Below are positions 1,842 to 43,320 of a stretch of DNA of 58,739 nt, in pieces. Made by a program: the position numbers and the translations under genes. The notes below the pieces were generated by a model, which worked only from the letters and a program-made list of their open reading frames with translations, made no database searches and was not told the origin of the DNA. Position 1 is the stretch's first letter; each line of letters opens with the position of its first letter. The stretch comes from Hyphomicrobiales bacterium (GTDB taxonomy: Bacteria > Pseudomonadota > Alphaproteobacteria > Rhizobiales > Beijerinckiaceae): contig JAPLOV010000191.1 of the NCBI GenBank assembly GCA_026400565.1, positions 1 to 58,739 of the forward strand, given 5' to 3'.

Positions 1842-3170
1842 TCAGAAACTGTCCTTGAGCCAGCGCCCGACGCGGGAGAGGTAGCCTCCGTCCGTGCCTG
1901 TCGCGAGATAGCCGCCCGACGAGCGCGGCTCGAAATGTTCGATGTGTGCCATCTGCGGGTAGATCAGCAGTCCCACGGCACCGGAGAAGGGCGGACCCTT
2001 CGCGGCTTCCGGCAGACCCTTGATACCGAGCGGGCGGCCAATCCGGACCTGCCCGCCGAGCACCGAGCGCGCCAGTTCCGGCAGGCCGGTGAGCTGGCAG
2101 GCCCCGCCTGTCAGCACCACACGACGACCGGCCTGATCGGAAAAATGCGCCGCCTTAAGCCGGTCCCGCACCAGTTCGAGGATCTCCTCGATGCGCGGAC
2201 GGATGATCTTGACGAGATGGGACTTGGGAATGTGACTCTGCTGGTCGCGATCCTCGTCATCGACCGACGGCACGGTGATGATGTCGCGTTCATCGGACGC
2301 GGTTGCCATCGTGCTGCCATACAAGGTCTTGAGGCGCTCGGCCGCAGCGACATTGGTGGACAGGCCGCGCGCCAGGTCCATGGTGATGTGATGGCCACCG
2401 ACCGCAATGCCATCGGCATGCACCAGATGGCCTTGCGAGAACACGCCGATGCTGGTCGTGCCGCCGCCCATGTCGACGAGCACAACGCCCATCTCGGCTT
2501 CGTCGTCGACCAGTGCCGACAGGCCCGAGGCATAGGGCGTGGCCACCACGGCCTCGACCGCGAGATTGCAGCGCTCGACTGCGAGCATCAGGTTGCGCGC
2601 GGCTGAGCCTTCGCCGGTCACGACATGCATGTCGACCGACAGCGACCGGCCCATCAGGCCGCGCGGATCGGTGACGCCGGGCTGGCCGTCGAGCGCATAG
2701 CCCGTCGGCAACGCGTGCAGCACGGCGCGGCCGGGCCTGACGCTGTGCGAGGCGGCTGCGGCCAGCACGCGCTTGACATCCTGGTCAGCCACCGAGCCGA
2801 TCCTGAGATCGACGCTGGCCGTGAAGCTCTGCGAACCCAGCCGCCCGCCAGTCTGGTTGACGATGACCGACTGGACCTCGACCTTGGCCATGCGCTCGGC
2901 TGCGTCCACCGCCTGGCGGATGCCGCGCTCGGCCAGTTCGAGGTCGACGACCGCCCCGCCCTTGAGGCCCATCGAGCGCGTGTGGCCAATGCCGATGACA
3001 CGGGCCAGGTGGGTCCTGCCACGCAACTGGTCGCTGGCTTCTGTGGGCTGGAGTTCCGCGATGAGGCAGACGATCTTGCTGGTGCCGACATCGAGCACCG
3101 ACATGATGGCGCTCTTGCGCGTCGACAGCGGCCTCAGCCGCGGGGTCAGGCCCTGGGAGAACAGGCTCAT
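1842..3170 (-). CDS. ftsA: Cell division protein FtsA
   Basis: FtsA is an actin-like ATPase that tethers FtsZ to the membrane. The 442-residue product has the actin-fold phosphate-1 motif (VLDVGTSKIVCLIAE, about residues 25-39) and a phosphate-2-like motif (VVLVDMGGGTTSIGVF, about 229-244). It ends in a basic amphipathic segment, SRVGRWLKDSF, that fits the membrane-targeting helix. Its ATG overlaps the ftsQ stop by four bases (ATGA), so translation is probably coupled. Length and ends are normal for the family and no frame damage is visible. Confidence 0.97.
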   Translation of the reverse strand: MSLFSQGLTPRLRPLSTRKSAIMSVLDVGTSKIVCLIAELQPTEASDQLRGRTHLARVIGIGHTRSMGLKGGAVVDLELAERGIRQAVDAAERMAKVEVQSVIVNQTGGRLGSQSFTASVDLRIGSVADQDVKRVLAAAASHSVRPGRAVLHALPTGYALDGQPGVTDPRGLMGRSLSVDMHVVTGEGSAARNLMLAVERCNLAVEAVVATPYASGLSALVDDEAEMGVVLVDMGGGTTSIGVFSQGHLVHADGIAVGGHHITMDLARGLSTNVAAAERLKTLYGSTMATASDERDIITVPSVDDEDRDQQSHIPKSHLVKIIRPRIEEILELVRDRLKAAHFSDQAGRRVVLTGGACQLTGLPELARSVLGGQVRIGRPLGIKGLPEAAKGPPFSGAVGLLIYPQMAHIEHFEPRSSGGYLATGTDGGYLSRVGRWLKDSF

Positions 3171-4140
3171 GCCTGGCCTCCCTTCGGCTTGGGCCGGTTC
3201 TTCAGCATCTCGGCGCGGGCAGCGGCCGCTTCCTCGGTCAGGCGCACCGTGACCCGGTCCGGCTGGCGCAGATCAACAGCGATGATGTCCTTGTCGAGCA
3301 GCTTCTGTTCGCGGGCCAGACGTTCGAGCCGGCGCACTGCCTTGTCGGCCTCGTCCTCGGGCAGGCGCACATCAAGCCCGTTGCTCATCTTCAGGGTCCA
3401 GCGCCGCTCGGACACCAGCGTGGCACCCCTGATCTGGCTGCGCAGTGAGCCGGCTTCCGCCAGCAGCACGACAAAGTCACGCGCACGCTTGTTGGCACCG
3501 GGCCCCACGACCAGCGGCAGATGGGCAAATCGCTCATCGCGCAGCTTGTCGATGACGGTGCCGTCGGATGCGATGATCGAGATTTCGCCATTGAGCTGCC
3601 ACAGCGCAAAGGGCTCGCGCTCACGGATCTGGATGGTCAGTTCGCCCGGATAGAGCTTGCGGATCTGCGCTTCGCGGATCAGCGGCTGAGCTTCGAGCCT
3701 CTCGCGAGCCTCACGCACATCGAAAAAGGCCAGCGATTTTTTGGCGAAATCCCGGCTGCTTTCAGCACTTCGCCTTCGCCAAGCTCTGACAAACCGGAGA
3801 TGGTGATCCGGTCCATGCCGAGGCCGAGCGTGCGGGCCAGCACATGGTGCGGCTCGCCGAACGTGGCACGGAAGCTCTCGGCATGGCCGCCGAGTACAAG
3901 GCCCGTGATGCCGACACCGGCCAGCAGCGTCAGCGAGAACAACGGAAACAGGCGGGGCGAAACCCGCTCGTGCAACGGCAAGGTCACGGAGGCGCGCGCA
4001 CCGAACGGCCAGAAGCCGCGGCGGCCCGTCCGCTCGCCCACCAGCAGCGGAACCTCGATGTCTCCCGGGCGAACGCGCTGGGACCGCACTCCGAAGAGCG
4101 CTGTCGTCAACGATCGCAGGAGGCGTCCTCCACCATCCAT
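3167..4140 (-). pseudogene. ftsQ: Cell division protein FtsQ, interrupted by one frameshift at an A6 run
   Basis: FtsQ is a bitopic membrane protein that links early and late divisome proteins. The N-terminal frame (from ATG 4140, overlapping ddl by 34 nt) gives a basic cytoplasmic tail, one membrane segment (LFPLFSLTLLAGVGITGLVL) and the start of the POTRA domain up to KAAGISPK. The rest of POTRA and the beta domain (KSLAFFDVREARERLEAQPL onward, ending GGQA) lie in another frame and run to 3167. The break is at six T on the plus strand (3737-3742), read as CCA AAA AAT. One more A would give a continuous protein of about 324 residues. The run also matches the -1 slippery heptamer A AAA AAT. 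ftsQ is normally essential, so an indel error or recoding is likelier than true loss. Confidence 0.85.
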
Positions 4141-27383: not shown

Positions 27384-27793
27384 GGCCAGTCGGCCGGACG
27401 GCCGCGGGGCACATGGCAGCATGAACCTCGAGGAAAGTCCGGGCTCCACGGAACAGCGATGCCGGACAACATCCGGCGGGGGCGACCCCAGGGACAGCGC
27501 CACAGAGATCGAACCGCCTGGCCCACGATCTCCGGATCCGGCGGCCAGGTAAGGGTGAAAAGGTGCGGTAAGAGCGCACCGCGGACCTGGCAACAGGGAC
27601 GGCATGGCAAGCCCCATCGGGAGCAAGACCGAATAGGGATGACGCGTTGCCCGCAAGGGCGGCAGGCCTGTTCCGGCCCAGTCATCCGGGTTGGTTGCTC
27701 GAGGTGCCTGGCAACAGGCATCCCAGAGGAATGGCCGTCACGTCAGGGGCAACCCTGGCCATCCAGAACCCGGCTTACAGGCCGGCTGGCACC
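27384..27793 (+). ncRNA. rnpB: RNase P RNA, bacterial type A
   Basis: The catalytic RNA that trims 5' leaders from pre-tRNAs. Universal core pieces are in the right order: GAGGAAAGTCCGGGCTCC (27430-27447), CCACAGAGATCGAACCGC (about 27500), GGTAAGGGTGAAAAGGTGCG (27548-27567), GGCAAGCCCCAT (27606-27617), AGAGGAATGGCCGTC (27725-27739) and AGAACCCGGCTTACAGGCCG near the 3' end. The 5' GCCAGTCGGCC and 3' GGCCGGCTGGC pair as helix P1 with one G-U pair and fix the ends. A 6-bp hairpin (CTCTGC/GCAGAG, 27814-27833) follows without a U-run. Confidence 0.96.
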
Positions 27794-39087: not shown

Positions 39088-39723
39088 ATGATTGCCACCT
39101 TGACTGTCGTTGCCGGCCCGATGTTCGCAGGCAAGACCTCGGCCCTGATCGCCCGCATCGTCGAGGCGCTCGACCGGCATCAGCAGCCTGTCGTCATCGT
39201 CAAGCCGGCCATGGACAACCGCTATGCCGAAGCGGCGATCGTGACCCATGACGGCGTGGCCCACCCGGCGCTGCCGATTGCCAGTGAGCACGACCTCTTC
39301 GCCGCCGTCGCCGAGGCCGCAGCCCGCGTTCAGGGGCCGGTTCACGTCTTCGCCGACGAAGTGCAGTTCCTCGAAGCGCCGCACTTCCACGGCTCGTTCC
39401 ACGAGGCCGTGCATGCCCTTCTGGTCGCCGGCCATGATGTCACCTGCGGCGGGCTTGACTGCGACTGGCGCGGCATGCCCTTCGATGTCTCGGCACGCCT
39501 GCTGGCCATGGCCGACCATGTCGAGAAGCTCACGGCGCGCTGTGCCGTCACCGGCCTTCCGGCCCAGAAGACCTACAAGAAGTCGCCGGATGCAACCCGA
39601 ATCGCGGTGGGTGCCGGTGACACCTACGAGCCGCGCTCCAACGCAGCCTGGGAAGGTGTCGAGCGCAGCGTCAGCACCGGCGAAGTCCAGTCATCTGGCA
39701 CGCGCCAGCAGGCACAGCGCTGA
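39088..39723 (+). CDS. tdk: Thymidine kinase (type II)
   Basis: This enzyme phosphorylates thymidine for salvage. The 211-residue protein has the P-loop GPMFAGKTS (residues 10-18), the DEVQFL Walker-B type motif, CGGLDCDWRGMPF with two cysteines and RCAVTGLPAQKTYKK, the zinc-ribbon and lasso region. ATG 39088 is chosen because the family starts MIATLTVVAGPM; the codons upstream are unrelated. It replaces ftsW at the murD-proximal inversion end. Confidence 0.87.
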   Translation: MIATLTVVAGPMFAGKTSALIARIVEALDRHQQPVVIVKPAMDNRYAEAAIVTHDGVAHPALPIASEHDLFAAVAEAAARVQGPVHVFADEVQFLEAPHFHGSFHEAVHALLVAGHDVTCGGLDCDWRGMPFDVSARLLAMADHVEKLTARCAVTGLPAQKTYKKSPDATRIAVGAGDTYEPRSNAAWEGVERSVSTGEVQSSGTRQQAQR

Positions 39724-39849
39724 AACCGGTCGCGGTGCTCCCCGTTTCGTGATCCGCCTGCGGCACTTGCTGTCGTAACGAAGTGCCCCGATCTTGCGTA
39801 TAATGCGGCAGGGCAGTCACATGCGTGATGCCTGGAGAGGGAGGCGAAC

Positions 39850-40839
39850 ATGCTCATCAGAACACGGCGCGGCTGGGAAATCCCGGAGTCCCAGGCCACC
39901 CCGGAAGCAGCCTTTCTAGACCGCCGCGCCTTCCTGGCCGCAGGAGCCGGTGCCGCCTCCATCGCTGCCGGCGTGACGCCAGCCTCGGCGCAATGGTTCG
40001 CAAGCAGCCAGCCCAACCTCGACCGCAAGCCTGACCCGACCGACGATCTTTATCCGGCCCGCCAGAACCCGGCCTTCACGCTTGACCGGGCGATGACACC
40101 CGAGGTCGTGGCCGCCGGCTACAACAACTATTATGAATTCGGCTCCTCCAAGAACATCTGGAAGCAGGCGGAAGCCAAGAAGACCCGGCCCTGGACCGTC
40201 ACCATCGATGGTCTGGTCGAAAAGCCCTTCGAGATCGGCATCGACGATCTCATCCGGCGTTCGCAGATCGAGGAGCGGCTCTATCGCTTCCGCTGTGTCG
40301 AGGCCTGGGCCATGGCCGTGCCGTGGACGGGCTTCACGCTGAAATCCTTCCTTGACATCGCCAAGCCGACCTCGGCTGCGAAGTATGTGCGGTTCGAGAC
40401 CTTCAAGGACCCGTCCATCGCGCCCGGCCAGCGCCAGACCTGGTATCCATGGCCCTATGCCGAGGCCATCACCATCGAGGAAGCAGCCAACGAATTGCCG
40501 CTGATGGTCACAGGCGTTTATGGCAAGCCGCTGCGCAACCAGTTCGGCGCGCCGCTCAGGCTGATCCTGCCGTGGAAATACGGCTTCAAGTCGATCAAGG
40601 CGATCACCCGCGTCAGCTTCACCGCCGACCGGCCGAAGAGCTTCTGGGAGCAGTTGCAGGGTGCGGAATACGGCTTCTGGGCCAATGTGAACCCGGAGGT
40701 GGCCCACCCGCGCTGGAGCCAGGCAACCGAACAGCTCATCGGCACGCAAGGCCGGGTTCCGACCCAGCTCTTCAACGGTTATGCCGCCCAGGTCGCCCAT
40801 CTTTACAAGGGCAAGGAAAGCGAGAAGCTCTACCTCTGA
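39850..40839 (+). CDS. msrP: Methionine sulfoxide reductase catalytic subunit MsrP
   Basis: MsrP (YedY) is a periplasmic molybdopterin enzyme that repairs oxidised methionine. The N-terminus has a twin-arginine signal (DRRAFLAAGAGAASIAAG; Arg25-Arg26). Cys149 in RFRCVEAWAMAVPW is the expected Mo ligand. LPWKYGFKSIKAI and the C-terminal NGYAAQVAHLYKG match the family. GGGAGG lies 7 nt before ATG. The usual heme partner MsrQ is not adjacent. Confidence 0.93.
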   Translation: MLIRTRRGWEIPESQATPEAAFLDRRAFLAAGAGAASIAAGVTPASAQWFASSQPNLDRKPDPTDDLYPARQNPAFTLDRAMTPEVVAAGYNNYYEFGSSKNIWKQAEAKKTRPWTVTIDGLVEKPFEIGIDDLIRRSQIEERLYRFRCVEAWAMAVPWTGFTLKSFLDIAKPTSAAKYVRFETFKDPSIAPGQRQTWYPWPYAEAITIEEAANELPLMVTGVYGKPLRNQFGAPLRLILPWKYGFKSIKAITRVSFTADRPKSFWEQLQGAEYGFWANVNPEVAHPRWSQATEQLIGTQGRVPTQLFNGYAAQVAHLYKGKESEKLYL

Positions 40840-40961
40840 CCGCTTGCCGGGTGCAATGGCGGTCGCCTCGCATCACGACAGGGACAATGCCCCGGCAATG
40901 AGGAAGATCGGGTGGTGACGGCGTCATCCGCCCTGCCTGAAGGCAGCATCTCCGCCTACCG

Positions 40962-40997
40962 AAAAAAGAAAGCCCGGTTCCTTGCGGAGCCGGGCTG
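40962..40997 (-). terminator. Rho-independent terminator of the candidate small RNA
   Basis: On the minus strand AGCCCGG pairs with CCGGGCT, an inner TCC/GGA pair closes a GCAA loop, and TTCTTTTTT follows (40962-40970). It is the strongest intrinsic terminator in the window. No protein gene ends just upstream on this strand; the nearest, lsrB, ends 260 bp away, so it most likely terminates the small RNA. Confidence 0.85.
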
Positions 40998-41090
40998 AAG
41001 GTCATGTCCGGCAAACCGGACACTCCAGAGGGGTGGATCAGGCGCTCATCAACACCGGGAGGGAAGCGGACGCGCGTTGTCCTGATCACC
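40962..41090 (-). ncRNA. Candidate trans-acting small RNA next to lsrB (AbcR-like in architecture)
   Basis: About 129 nt of non-coding DNA has the plan of an enterobacterial/rhizobial riboregulator. Hairpin 1 joins GGTGATCAGG to CCTGATCCACC with one bulged C, and its large loop exposes CTTCCCTCCC, complementary to Shine-Dalgarno sequences. Hairpin 2 is perfect (TGTCCGG-TTTG-CCGGACA). Hairpin 3 is the terminator with a U-run. A 17-bp-spaced promoter lies directly upstream. The three-hairpin form, length and exposed CU-rich loop recall AbcR/alpha-r15 RNAs of Hyphomicrobiales, which the LsrB/VtlR regulator activates in Brucella and Agrobacterium. I cannot align the sequence to that family here, so the name is an inference. 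Confidence 0.6.
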
Positions 41091-41095
41091 GTCTC

Positions 41096-41134
41096 CTTAT
41101 GCCAAAAGGACGGTCATGCTGCAATGCAACATGA
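41096..41134 (-). promoter_or_regulatory. Small RNA promoter overlapped by a 21-bp dyad
   Basis: On the minus strand the -35 TTGCAG (41124-41119) and -10 CATAAG (41101-41096) are 17 bp apart and predict a start near 41089. A dyad spans 41134-41114: arms TCATGTTGCA and TGCAGCATGA match at 9 of 10 positions around one central T. It contains T-N11-A spacings typical of LysR-type sites and covers the -35. The neighbouring lsrB gene encodes the obvious candidate regulator. Confidence 0.55.
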
Positions 41135-41257
41135 CGCAGGTACGCCATGCGTTACGGGAATGATCCAAACACCTTTTCGCCGTTTTTGAGGATACCCCGC
41201 CACTTCGTGCATGCAAGGCCGCCCGAAAGCCGGCACGCAGCACACCCGCCGAGCCGC

Positions 41258-42157
41258 TCAGAACGTCCATCGCTGGGCCCGCTGGATCAGGAAATCGCGG
41301 AAGGCCTGCACCCGCGCAACGGTTTTCATCTCTTCGGGATAGACCAGATAGCTGTCGAGCGACGGCATCTCGACCTCGCGCAGCACCTGCACCAGCGGCG
41401 AACCCTGCTCGACCAGATAATCCGGCAGGACGGCGATGCCGGCCCCGTGCTCCACGGCATTGCGCAGCGCCGCGATGTTGTTGACCAGCAGATGCGGCAC
41501 GCGCGGATTGCGCGGATCACGCCCGGCATTGCCCAGCCAGTGCACCGACAGAAGATAGGATGGCGACTGGCCGCCGAAGGACAGGATGCGGTGGTTGTCG
41601 AGCTCATCCAGCGATTTTGGCTCGCCATAGCGCTTGATGTAGGCCGGCGCGGCATAGCAATGGAAATGCACCGTGAACAGCTTGCGCTGGATCAGGTCCG
41701 GCTGCTGCGGCTGGCGCAGGCGGATGGCGATGTCGGCCTGCCGCATCGACAGGTCGAGTTCCTCGTCGGTCAGGATCAGTTCAACGCGCACATCGGGATA
41801 GGCGTCGAGGAAATCACTCAGGCGCGGGGCCAGCCAGCGGCTGCCCAGCCCCACCGTCGTGGTCACCTTGAGTTCGCCCGACGGATGCTCGCGCGTCTCG
41901 GTAAGCTGCGCCTTGGTCTTTTCGAGGCGCTGCGTCATGTCGCGCGCGGCGCGCCACAACAATTCGCCCTGCTCGGTGAGGATCAGGCCCCGTGTGTGCC
42001 GGTGGAACAGCGGCGCGCGCACCTCGCGTTCCAGCGCACTGATCTGCCGGCTGACAGCGGACTGGCTGAGCCCGAGCGTGTCGCCTGCCTTGGTGAAGGA
42101 GCCGGACTCCGCCACGGTGTAGAAGATCCGGATCCTGTCCCAGTCCATTGCCTGCAT
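41258..42157 (-). CDS. lsrB: LysR-type regulator LsrB/VtlR
   Basis: The 299-residue protein begins MQAMDWDRIRIFYTVAESGS and has SQSAVSRQISALE in the winged helix, then VTTTVGLGSRWLAPRLSDFL, RLRQPQQPDLIQRKLFTVHF and the end RVQAFRDFLIQRAQRWTF. These are hallmark stretches of LsrB (Sinorhizobium) and VtlR (Brucella, Agrobacterium). LsrB is linked to oxidative stress and trxB, while VtlR activates AbcR small RNAs. It follows trxB on the same strand, as in rhizobia. Only one cysteine (Cys167) is present, although redox sensing by several cysteines has been described for Sinorhizobium LsrB. Confidence 0.88.
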   Translation of the reverse strand: MQAMDWDRIRIFYTVAESGSFTKAGDTLGLSQSAVSRQISALEREVRAPLFHRHTRGLILTEQGELLWRAARDMTQRLEKTKAQLTETREHPSGELKVTTTVGLGSRWLAPRLSDFLDAYPDVRVELILTDEELDLSMRQADIAIRLRQPQQPDLIQRKLFTVHFHCYAAPAYIKRYGEPKSLDELDNHRILSFGGQSPSYLLSVHWLGNAGRDPRNPRVPHLLVNNIAALRNAVEHGAGIAVLPDYLVEQGSPLVQVLREVEMPSLDSYLVYPEEMKTVARVQAFRDFLIQRAQRWTF

Positions 42158-42176
42158 TGCCCCCGAGCAGATCGCT

Positions 42177-42193
42177 CATGCGTTTTGTGCATG
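42177..42193. promoter_or_regulatory. Palindrome upstream of lsrB
   Basis: CATGC and GCATG arms flank a 7-base GTTTTGT spacer, 20-36 bp upstream of the lsrB ATG. LysR-family genes are commonly autoregulated from such sites. The outer CATG ends are shared with the dyad at the small-RNA promoter, but the centres differ. Confidence 0.3.
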
Positions 42194-42345
42194 TTGGGGC
42201 GGAATCATCCACTGCGTCAAGCTGATGACAGATGCACAATCCATGAATTGCGCTGATGGGTTCGATCACTTTGGCCGGATACGGCCCGCCGGGAGAGCCT
42301 TGCACGGGTGGAAACAGCCACAAAAGCCCCCGCGGGCGACCCGCT

Positions 42346-43320
42346 CTACTCCGCAGCCATCCGCCCCGATTCCTGCGCTGCCAGCCACTTCTCGGCTTCC
42401 AGCGCGGCCATGCAGCCAAGGCCTGCTGCCGTCACAGCCTGGCGATAGGTGTCATCGGCCACATCGCCGGCGGCAAAGACGCCGGGGATATTGGTCGCAG
42501 TCGAATTCGGTTTGGTGATGATGTAACCCGAATCCTTCATCGCCACCTGCCCGATGAACAGGTCGGTCGACGGCTTGTGGCCGATGGCAACGAAGACACC
42601 GTCGGTCTTCACATCCGACAGGGCGCCTGTCTTGAGGTTCTTCAGGCGCACATGCGTGACGCCGGGGGTGCCTTCCCCACCGGGCAGCACGCCGCAGATT
42701 TCGTCCACCGCAGAGTCCCAGATCACGTCGATCTTGGGGTGCTTCAGCAGGCGATCCTGCAGGATCTTCTCGGCTTTCAGGCTGTCACGGCGATGCACCA
42801 GCGTCACCTTGCTGGCCAGATTGGCGAGATAGAGGCTTTCCTCAACGGCCGAGTTGCCGCCACCAACCACGACCACCTCGCGGTTGCGGAAGAAAAAGCC
42901 GTCGCAGGTCGCGCAGGCCGAGACGCCGAAGCCCTGGAAGCTATGCTCGGACGGGATGCCGAGCCATTTGGCCTGGGCACCGGTGGCGATCACCAGCGCC
43001 TCGCACGAATATGTGTCGCCGCCATCGCCCCGGAGGCGGAACGGATGGCTGCCGAGGTCGACCTTCGAGATGTGATCGGAGATCATGATCGTGCCGACAT
43101 GGGCCGCCTGCTTCTGCATCTGCTCCATCAGCCACGGGCCCTGGATGACATCGGCAAAGCCGGGGTAGTTCTCCACATCGGTGGTGATCATCAACTGCCC
43201 GCCCGGCTGGAAGCCGGACACCAGCACCGGCGCAAGCATGGCGCGGGCGGCATAAATCGCAGCGGTGTAGCCGGCAGGGCCGGAGCCGACGATCATCAAT
43301 CTGGCATGGACATGGGCCAT
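42346..43320 (-). CDS. trxB: Thioredoxin-disulfide reductase
   Basis: This FAD enzyme passes electrons from NADPH to thioredoxin. It has the FAD fold GSGPAGYTAAIYAARA, redox pair Cys136 and Cys139 in ACATCDGFF, the NADPH fold GGGNSAVEESLYLA with HRRD, and the C-terminal GVFAAGDVADDTYRQAV motif, in 324 residues. A strong GAGGAG lies 6 nt before ATG 43320. It sits between the ELM1-family gene and lsrB, all on the minus strand. Confidence 0.96.
   Translation of the reverse strand: MAHVHARLMIVGSGPAGYTAAIYAARAMLAPVLVSGFQPGGQLMITTDVENYPGFADVIQGPWLMEQMQKQAAHVGTIMISDHISKVDLGSHPFRLRGDGGDTYSCEALVIATGAQAKWLGIPSEHSFQGFGVSACATCDGFFFRNREVVVVGGGNSAVEESLYLANLASKVTLVHRRDSLKAEKILQDRLLKHPKIDVIWDSAVDEICGVLPGGEGTPGVTHVRLKNLKTGALSDVKTDGVFVAIGHKPSTDLFIGQVAMKDSGYIITKPNSTATNIPGVFAAGDVADDTYRQAVTAAGLGCMAALEAEKWLAAQESGRMAAE

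Follow-up and report, generated by a model that had tools for sequence, protein, structure and literature searches.

Is the short structured element behind the lsrB gene of a Hyphomicrobiales bacterium a small RNA gene in its own right and, if so, to which class of RNA does it belong? The element lies on the 58,739-nt contig JAPLOV010000191.1 of a 3.4-Mb draft genome (assembly GCA_026400565.1); this whole contig is the window of our study. The bacterium is Bosea-like, its nearest named lsrB loci pointing to Bosea or a close genus. The original prediction was of an orphan RNA, AbcR-like or new, forming a compact module with its regulator. By the comparative tests made here, the predicted small RNA gene is real. 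We consider it likely that it encodes an lsrB-linked AbcR (alpha-r15-type) RNA, a diverged ortholog of the Agrobacterium and Sinorhizobium AbcR1, which would have its own transcription and most likely be activated by LsrB. The module itself is not new, as it is already described for Agrobacterium and Sinorhizobium in excerpts of PMC7486931, PMC3712013 and PMC8844928. What is new is its reach, and a diverged form that is too distant for Rfam.

Layout of the locus

On the minus strand trxB is followed by the gene of an LsrB/VtlR-type LysR regulator and then by the small RNA, with msrP converging from the opposite side (Table 1; compared loci and genomes are given as L and G numbers). The best solved relative of the regulator is PDB 9hh1, which is annotated only as LysR family (E 1.7e-119). 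The identity to the Agrobacterium protein, together with the upstream trxB, supports its assignment as an LsrB/VtlR ortholog. The trxB-lsrB order is shared with the Agrobacterium locus L115, where a thioredoxin-reductase-like frame lies upstream of lsrB and two RNAs over the Rfam ar15 cut-off lie downstream, and it is also found in passages of PMC7486931. According to extracts of that paper and of PMC3712013, in both A. tumefaciens and S. meliloti abcR1 and abcR2 come directly after vtlR/lsrB. The small RNA gene of the window is directly downstream of lsrB on the same strand, with L115, L116 and L125 as positive controls; a tandem twin was not found at the window locus. Elsewhere the window hosts a class A RNase P RNA (27386-27793, plus strand, 284.6 bits).

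Table 1. Features of the lsrB-RNA locus, in window coordinates.
Feature	Position	Strand	Remarks
trxB, thioredoxin reductase, upstream of lsrB	42346..43320	-	TIGR01292 396 bits (cut-off 343)
LsrB/VtlR-family LysR regulator, 299 aa (ortholog)	41258..42157	-	59% identity to Agrobacterium L115 lsrB product
LsrB/VtlR-type operator-like box GCATGGCGTACCTGC	41136..41150	-	26 nt before -35; matrix ranks
Dyad over -35 GTCATGTTGCATTGCAGCATGAC	41113..41135	-	10/11 pairs; called terminator-like by generic scan
-35 element TTGCAG	41119..41124	-	TTGC[AG][AG] in 43/43 Bosea-type loci
-10 element CATAAG, 17 nt past -35	41096..41101	-	[GA]ATAT here in 38/43
Probable AbcR-type small RNA gene	40962..41090	-	~129 nt; start inferred from -10
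5' hairpin with anti-Shine-Dalgarno stretch	41032..41090	-	fold, alignment
Anti-Shine-Dalgarno stretch CTTCCCTCCC	41057..41066	-	CTCCTCCC in other Bosea-type RNAs
Linker ACCCCTCTGG	41025..41034	-	GTTCCCCTCTG in relatives
Second hairpin	41004..41023	-	fold, comparison
Intrinsic terminator and U-tail	40962..40996	-	stem 40996-40971, then TTCTTTTTT at 40970-40962
msrP, convergent neighbour	39850..40839	+	NF003767 407.5 bits (cut-off 207)

Structure of the predicted RNA

The RNA is predicted to fold at -59.3 kcal/mol (z -4.79), and none of 200 shuffled sequences did as well. Three hairpins make up the minimum free energy (MFE) structure (41090-41032, 41023-41004 and 40996-40971), just as the original prediction of three hairpins with a terminator had it. 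The C-rich stretch that it described as complementary to Shine-Dalgarno sites is also there, with 7 of the 10 nucleotides of CTTCCCTCCC unpaired in the MFE structure. The loop, CUUCCCUCCC, agrees with the AbcR motif UCCUCCC at six of seven positions. A U-tail is present, and the stretch preceding the terminator, GACCUUC, is not A/U-rich. A generic scan of positions 39500-42500 did not list the 40996-40971 terminator.

Covariance-model searches

The Rfam model of this class, RF02345 (ar15), had been proposed as a check on the AbcR assignment. It does not find the RNA, as there is no window hit at the 40-bit gathering cut-off nor at E<=10, and no match in the source genome. The same model scores the RNAs of Agrobacterium (L115, L116), Sinorhizobium (L125) and Hoeflea (L136) at 68.5-121.7 bits. 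Among six other Bosea-type loci, L008, L029, L063 and L064 reach 28.4-30 bits (L063 being the contig of L008), and in L018 and L062 nothing is matched at E<=0.1. Across 297 genomes of the order 17 are over the cut-off and 45 are matched at E<=0.001, in a search whose filters lose weak matches.

We built our own covariance model, R1, from 12 RNAs (eight Bosea-type, three from Chelatococcus and one from Salinarimonas), with the window and G033 excluded. R1 derives from an alignment that we call A3; the pairs of the second hairpin, which RNAalifold did not predict, are missing from it. A family-wide MAFFT alignment (A2) was dropped for this purpose, as its 3' half was misaligned (Rhizobiaceae terminators). 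R1 does match the window, at 40966-41088 with 32.6 bits (E 2.5e-6), the next best match in the window having an E of 1.1. In the source genome this is the single match at E<=0.001 (E 1.4e-4). Of 61 genomes 42 were matched, and 15 genomes with lsrB were not.

R1 was also run on a set of 100 lsrB loci, consisting of the window, L007 and L042-L139 (L008-L041, L140 and L141 are outside the set). At E<=0.1 it matched 62 loci, with 78 matches in total. Six of these exceed an E of 0.01, and six, in the five loci L062, L065, L069, L072 and L073, are part of the training set. Every match lies downstream of lsrB on the lsrB strand, at a median of 199 nt. Outside the Bosea type 53 of 91 loci have a match, or 50 of 88 when training loci are left out. 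Just downstream of lsrB in L115, L116, L125 and L136, R1 recovers the RNAs that pass the ar15 cut-off. Since it matches both these and the window RNA, R1 joins the window RNA to the AbcR genes.

No R1 match at E<=0.1 was obtained in 38 of the 100 loci. In the Methylobacterium/Methylorubrum loci L074, L076-L082 and L086 lsrB is kept with no R1 match behind it, and our literature search returned no paper pairing AbcR1 with Methylobacterium. By eye, several unmatched loci (e.g. L048, L050, L052 and L053) have C-rich, terminator-ended stretches. L052, again by eye, shows two tandem RNAs downstream of lsrB with two CCTCCC stretches each, and one of the two RNAs has a weak match to Rfam ar14 (30.6 bits, cut-off 58.8). 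In L105 an AbcR-like element was seen by eye on the opposite strand, facing lsrB, ~230-330 nt downstream.

On the lsrB strand, 86 of 136 loci contain a simple pattern (TCCC, CCCCTC and a T-run within 800 nt downstream of lsrB; 5 of 136 loci had less than 800 nt), among them 43 of the 93 loci that are not Bosea-type; the opposite strand gave 0 of 136. In the next 800 nt it occurs in two of 102 testable loci, L098 and L107, where R1 puts the RNA ~1.25 kb away.

Conservation and covariation

A plain DNA search of the 61 genomes found, besides the source genome, only one full-length copy (G033, 93% identical) and the terminator only in three others. This single close copy could suggest an orphan, but the search by lsrB neighbour showed the RNA in all Bosea-type loci. 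At E<=1e-60 lsrB was found in 57 of the 61 genomes, the source genome included. In all 36 same-genus genomes with lsrB (again including the source), TG[CT]TGCATTGC and an RNA stand behind it. The same-genus RNAs carry CTCCTCCCGG, or TTCCCTCCCGG in the window and G033, and then CCCCTCTG. Together with seven named loci, promoter and RNA are present in 43 of 43 Bosea-type lsrB loci, a count of loci in which at least three are counted twice (L063/L008, L066/L031, L068/L039). Among them are 40 distinct promoters and 34 distinct RNAs. Nine same-genus genomes (G003, G007, G012, G018, G021, G022, G023, G027 and G029) have one to three extra R1 matches each away from lsrB, possibly dispersed AbcR paralogs.

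The helices of the predicted RNA covary. In an alignment of 74 distinct matches fitted to the R1 model, which favours the model's own pairs, 88.8% of pair cells are standard pairs, against 28-42% for slid structures, and 26 of 27 pairs have two-sided changes. The covariation score there is 0.390, compared with 0.145 for shuffles (0 of 500 as good) and at most 0.050 for slid structures. In A3, which was aligned without the model, 9 of the 27 predicted pairs show two-sided changes, and covariation contributes little to the energy (-1.52 of -30.59 kcal/mol).

Promoter, operator-like box and dyad

The promoter TTGCAG-N17-CATAAG of the original prediction is supported by comparison. All 43 Bosea-type loci contain TTGC[AG][AG], which was located by pattern search. 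Past it, at a distance of 17 nt, the hexamer is [GA]ATAT in 38 of these, CATAAG in the window and L007, and something else in three. The generic scan misses both promoter and terminator, therefore the promoter call rests on comparison.

We trained a matrix on 56 distinct non-Bosea promoters, with the window and the other Bosea-type promoters left out of training. The promoter could be aligned for 66 of the 78 R1 hits; 12 were left out. In this matrix, whose promoters were anchored on the TTG best fitting a box chosen by eye and which leans towards that box, the 60-nt promoter of the window ranks first among 117360 window positions, the segment from box to -35 first among 117416, and the box alone fourth among 117450. 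The second matrix hit (window 1265, minus strand, 7.3 against 22.8) lies inside a long frame, presumably ftsZ, and was set aside as chance.

At 26 nt before the -35 the 56 promoters have the consensus GCATGGCTGACATGC, and the window has its own version of the box there. This version reads GCAT-GGC-GT-ACC-T, while excerpts of PMC7486931 and PMC3712013 give the VtlR box as GCAT-N3-TG-N3-T. GT thus stands for TG, the rest matches, and the placement is correct. Five of the 12 hits left out are second tandem copies (L115, L116, L125, L126 and L129), which would fit a lack of the LsrB motif in abcR2 promoters, as passages of PMC8844928 indicate. A general rule that second tandem copies have no box was rejected; it is true for these five and fails for L051, L122, L131 and L133 among others. 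Chelatococcus sambhunathii (L069) has two closely similar tandem lsrB-linked RNAs (3033-3162 and 3281-3411) with an LsrB-type box on both.

The dyad over the -35 had been put forward as a candidate LsrB site. The dyad exists, and all Bosea-type promoters contain its inner TGCATTGC, which was part of the search pattern. As the LsrB site, however, it finds no support: the conserved LsrB-type box is a separate feature that lies upstream of it, and the outer half of the dyad is poorly kept. On average 2.5 of 6 outer pairs remain across 38 other distinct Bosea-type promoters, against 1.5 by chance.

Target tests

Duplex energies were computed for 44 substrate-binding-protein gene starts of transporters and 29 control genes, with start codons guessed by rule. 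The transporter set comprises 8 of 9 matches to PF13458, 22 of 26 to PF00496 and 14 of 16 to PF13416, one match below the family cut-off and partial matches being left out. The controls come from 49 short-chain dehydrogenase matches; 30 of these had loci, and 29 were used after one was left out. There was no difference between the two sets (p 0.60 for the loop, 0.53 for the linker and 0.74 for the whole RNA). Compared with their own shuffles, the linker pairs less well (-14.2 vs -15.2) and the loop, in both sets, slightly better.

After the duplex test had failed we tried the longest exact loop complement, which averages 5.2 nt in transporter and 4.4 nt in control genes (p 0.013), an excess confounded by the stronger Shine-Dalgarno sites of the transporter set (p 0.023). 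Complements of at least 7 nt occur in 8 of 44 transporter and 1 of 29 control genes (Fisher p 0.078), with the same confounding. As the measure is post hoc, the starts are guessed and the Shine-Dalgarno sites differ in strength, this excess does not establish targets.

Discussion

Could the RNA be AbcR-like but outside LsrB control, its neighbourhood a matter of inherited gene order only? We think this unlikely, although the TG of the published box is replaced here, the final TGC is missing from the other Bosea-type boxes, and 38 loci have lsrB with no R1 match behind it. In promoters aligned from many families the box sits 26 nt ahead of the -35, and its TGC end is retained in the window. A weaker argument comes from the four genomes with no lsrB match at E<=1e-60 (G038, G050, G052 and G026, the last being the one same-genus case): R1 is absent from these too, yet it is also absent from the 15 unmatched genomes that have lsrB.

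An RNA unrelated to AbcR by descent, which occupies the same place and has converged on a C-rich loop, seems quite improbable to us. The full length of the RNA is matched by R1, a model without the window lineage; promoter frame and place are the same; and there are intermediate features, such as the CGGACATGAC after hairpin 2 that is common to the window and the Chelatococcus locus L069. This has to be set against the failure of ar15, the fact that the best Rfam match of the window is anti-hemB, another C-rich RNA, below threshold (27.7 bits, cut-off 49.5), and a 5' stem whose letters differ from those of the other Bosea-type RNAs.

Alternatively, the region could be just the 3' tail of the lsrB message, its hairpins serving as terminators. 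The generic scan of 39500-42500 would fit this, as it labels the dyad as terminator-like and lists no sigma-70 promoter (0 found against 0.4 expected). Nevertheless, the distance from lsrB to the RNA varies among Bosea-type loci while the promoter elements stay in frame, and AbcR1 and AbcR2 are independent transcription units in S. meliloti according to excerpts of PMC3712013, all of which makes a mere message end very improbable. A short protein is scarcely credible: the open GTG-started frame of 105 aa (40772-41089) overlaps the RNA but crosses the terminator and runs antisense into msrP, the stems covary as RNA, and we do not count it as a gene, in keeping with the original view that no protein gene is attached.

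This leaves the lsrB-linked AbcR as our preferred reading, and the earlier suggestion of an AbcR-like RNA adjoining its LsrB/VtlR gene agrees with it. LsrB, made just upstream, would bind the GCATGGCGTACCTGC box, centred near -53, and activate the RNA, which would be transcribed on its own. Excerpts of PMC8844928 describe binding of LsrB to PabcR1 in S. meliloti, where AbcR1 cannot be detected once LsrB is missing. Hfq may help the RNA, and an hfq gene is present in the source genome. The C-rich 5' loop would then pair with the Shine-Dalgarno regions of mRNAs and block their translation, the targets probably being nutrient ABC-transporter mRNAs.

Like the AbcR1 (RF02345) of Agrobacterium and Sinorhizobium, the window RNA lies downstream of lsrB/vtlR and has its own predicted promoter with an LsrB-type, operator-like box. 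It also shares the 5' hairpin with a C-rich loop, the CCCCTC linker, the second hairpin and the terminator. It differs in escaping Rfam, in its loop (CUUCCCUCCC instead of UCCUCCC) and in having no clear A/U-rich stretch. AbcR2, the RpoH1-dependent twin in S. meliloti, is the same type of RNA; its promoter lacks the LsrB motif in passages of PMC8844928, whereas the window has a box-like element and no tandem twin at the locus. VrsA of Agrobacterium, likened here by description only, is VtlR-activated too (extracts of PMC7486931), as we propose for the window RNA with LsrB, but its gene is elsewhere in the genome rather than adjoining lsrB. For Bosea, no AbcR was among the literature matches listed, and the co-mention of Bosea and abcr in PMC10413263 names a chemicals firm.

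The regulator itself raises a further point. In parts of PMC11975290, a role in redox sensing is reported for cysteines C144 and C273 of the A. tumefaciens LsrB. Because the aligned L115 sequence starts at residue five, its positions 140, 232, 240 and 269 correspond to C144, C236, C244 and C273 of that paper. All 16 Rhizobiaceae and Hoeflea LsrB proteins in a separate tally have cysteines at aligned positions 140 and 269. Of the 43 Bosea-type proteins, 41 (L008-L041 and L062-L068) are cysteine-free in the aligned region, therefore the Agrobacterium thiol switch should not work there; the window and L007 proteins have one cysteine each, at another place than C144 or C273.

The Bosea-type LsrB is thus without the redox cysteines, yet the RNA and the operator-like box are kept. 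From this we tentatively suggest, at somewhat less than even chances, that lsrB-abcR is an old core circuit of the Hyphomicrobiales that predates the thiol switch of the Rhizobiaceae, and that the Bosea-type LsrB answers another signal, in the source genome largely via one single-copy AbcR. Our results extend a known pair of regulator and sRNA to a genus largely missed by the public RNA model. With one RNA copy and an LsrB without redox cysteines, this simpler system may allow the signal and purpose of LsrB-AbcR regulation to be tested without a redundant twin.
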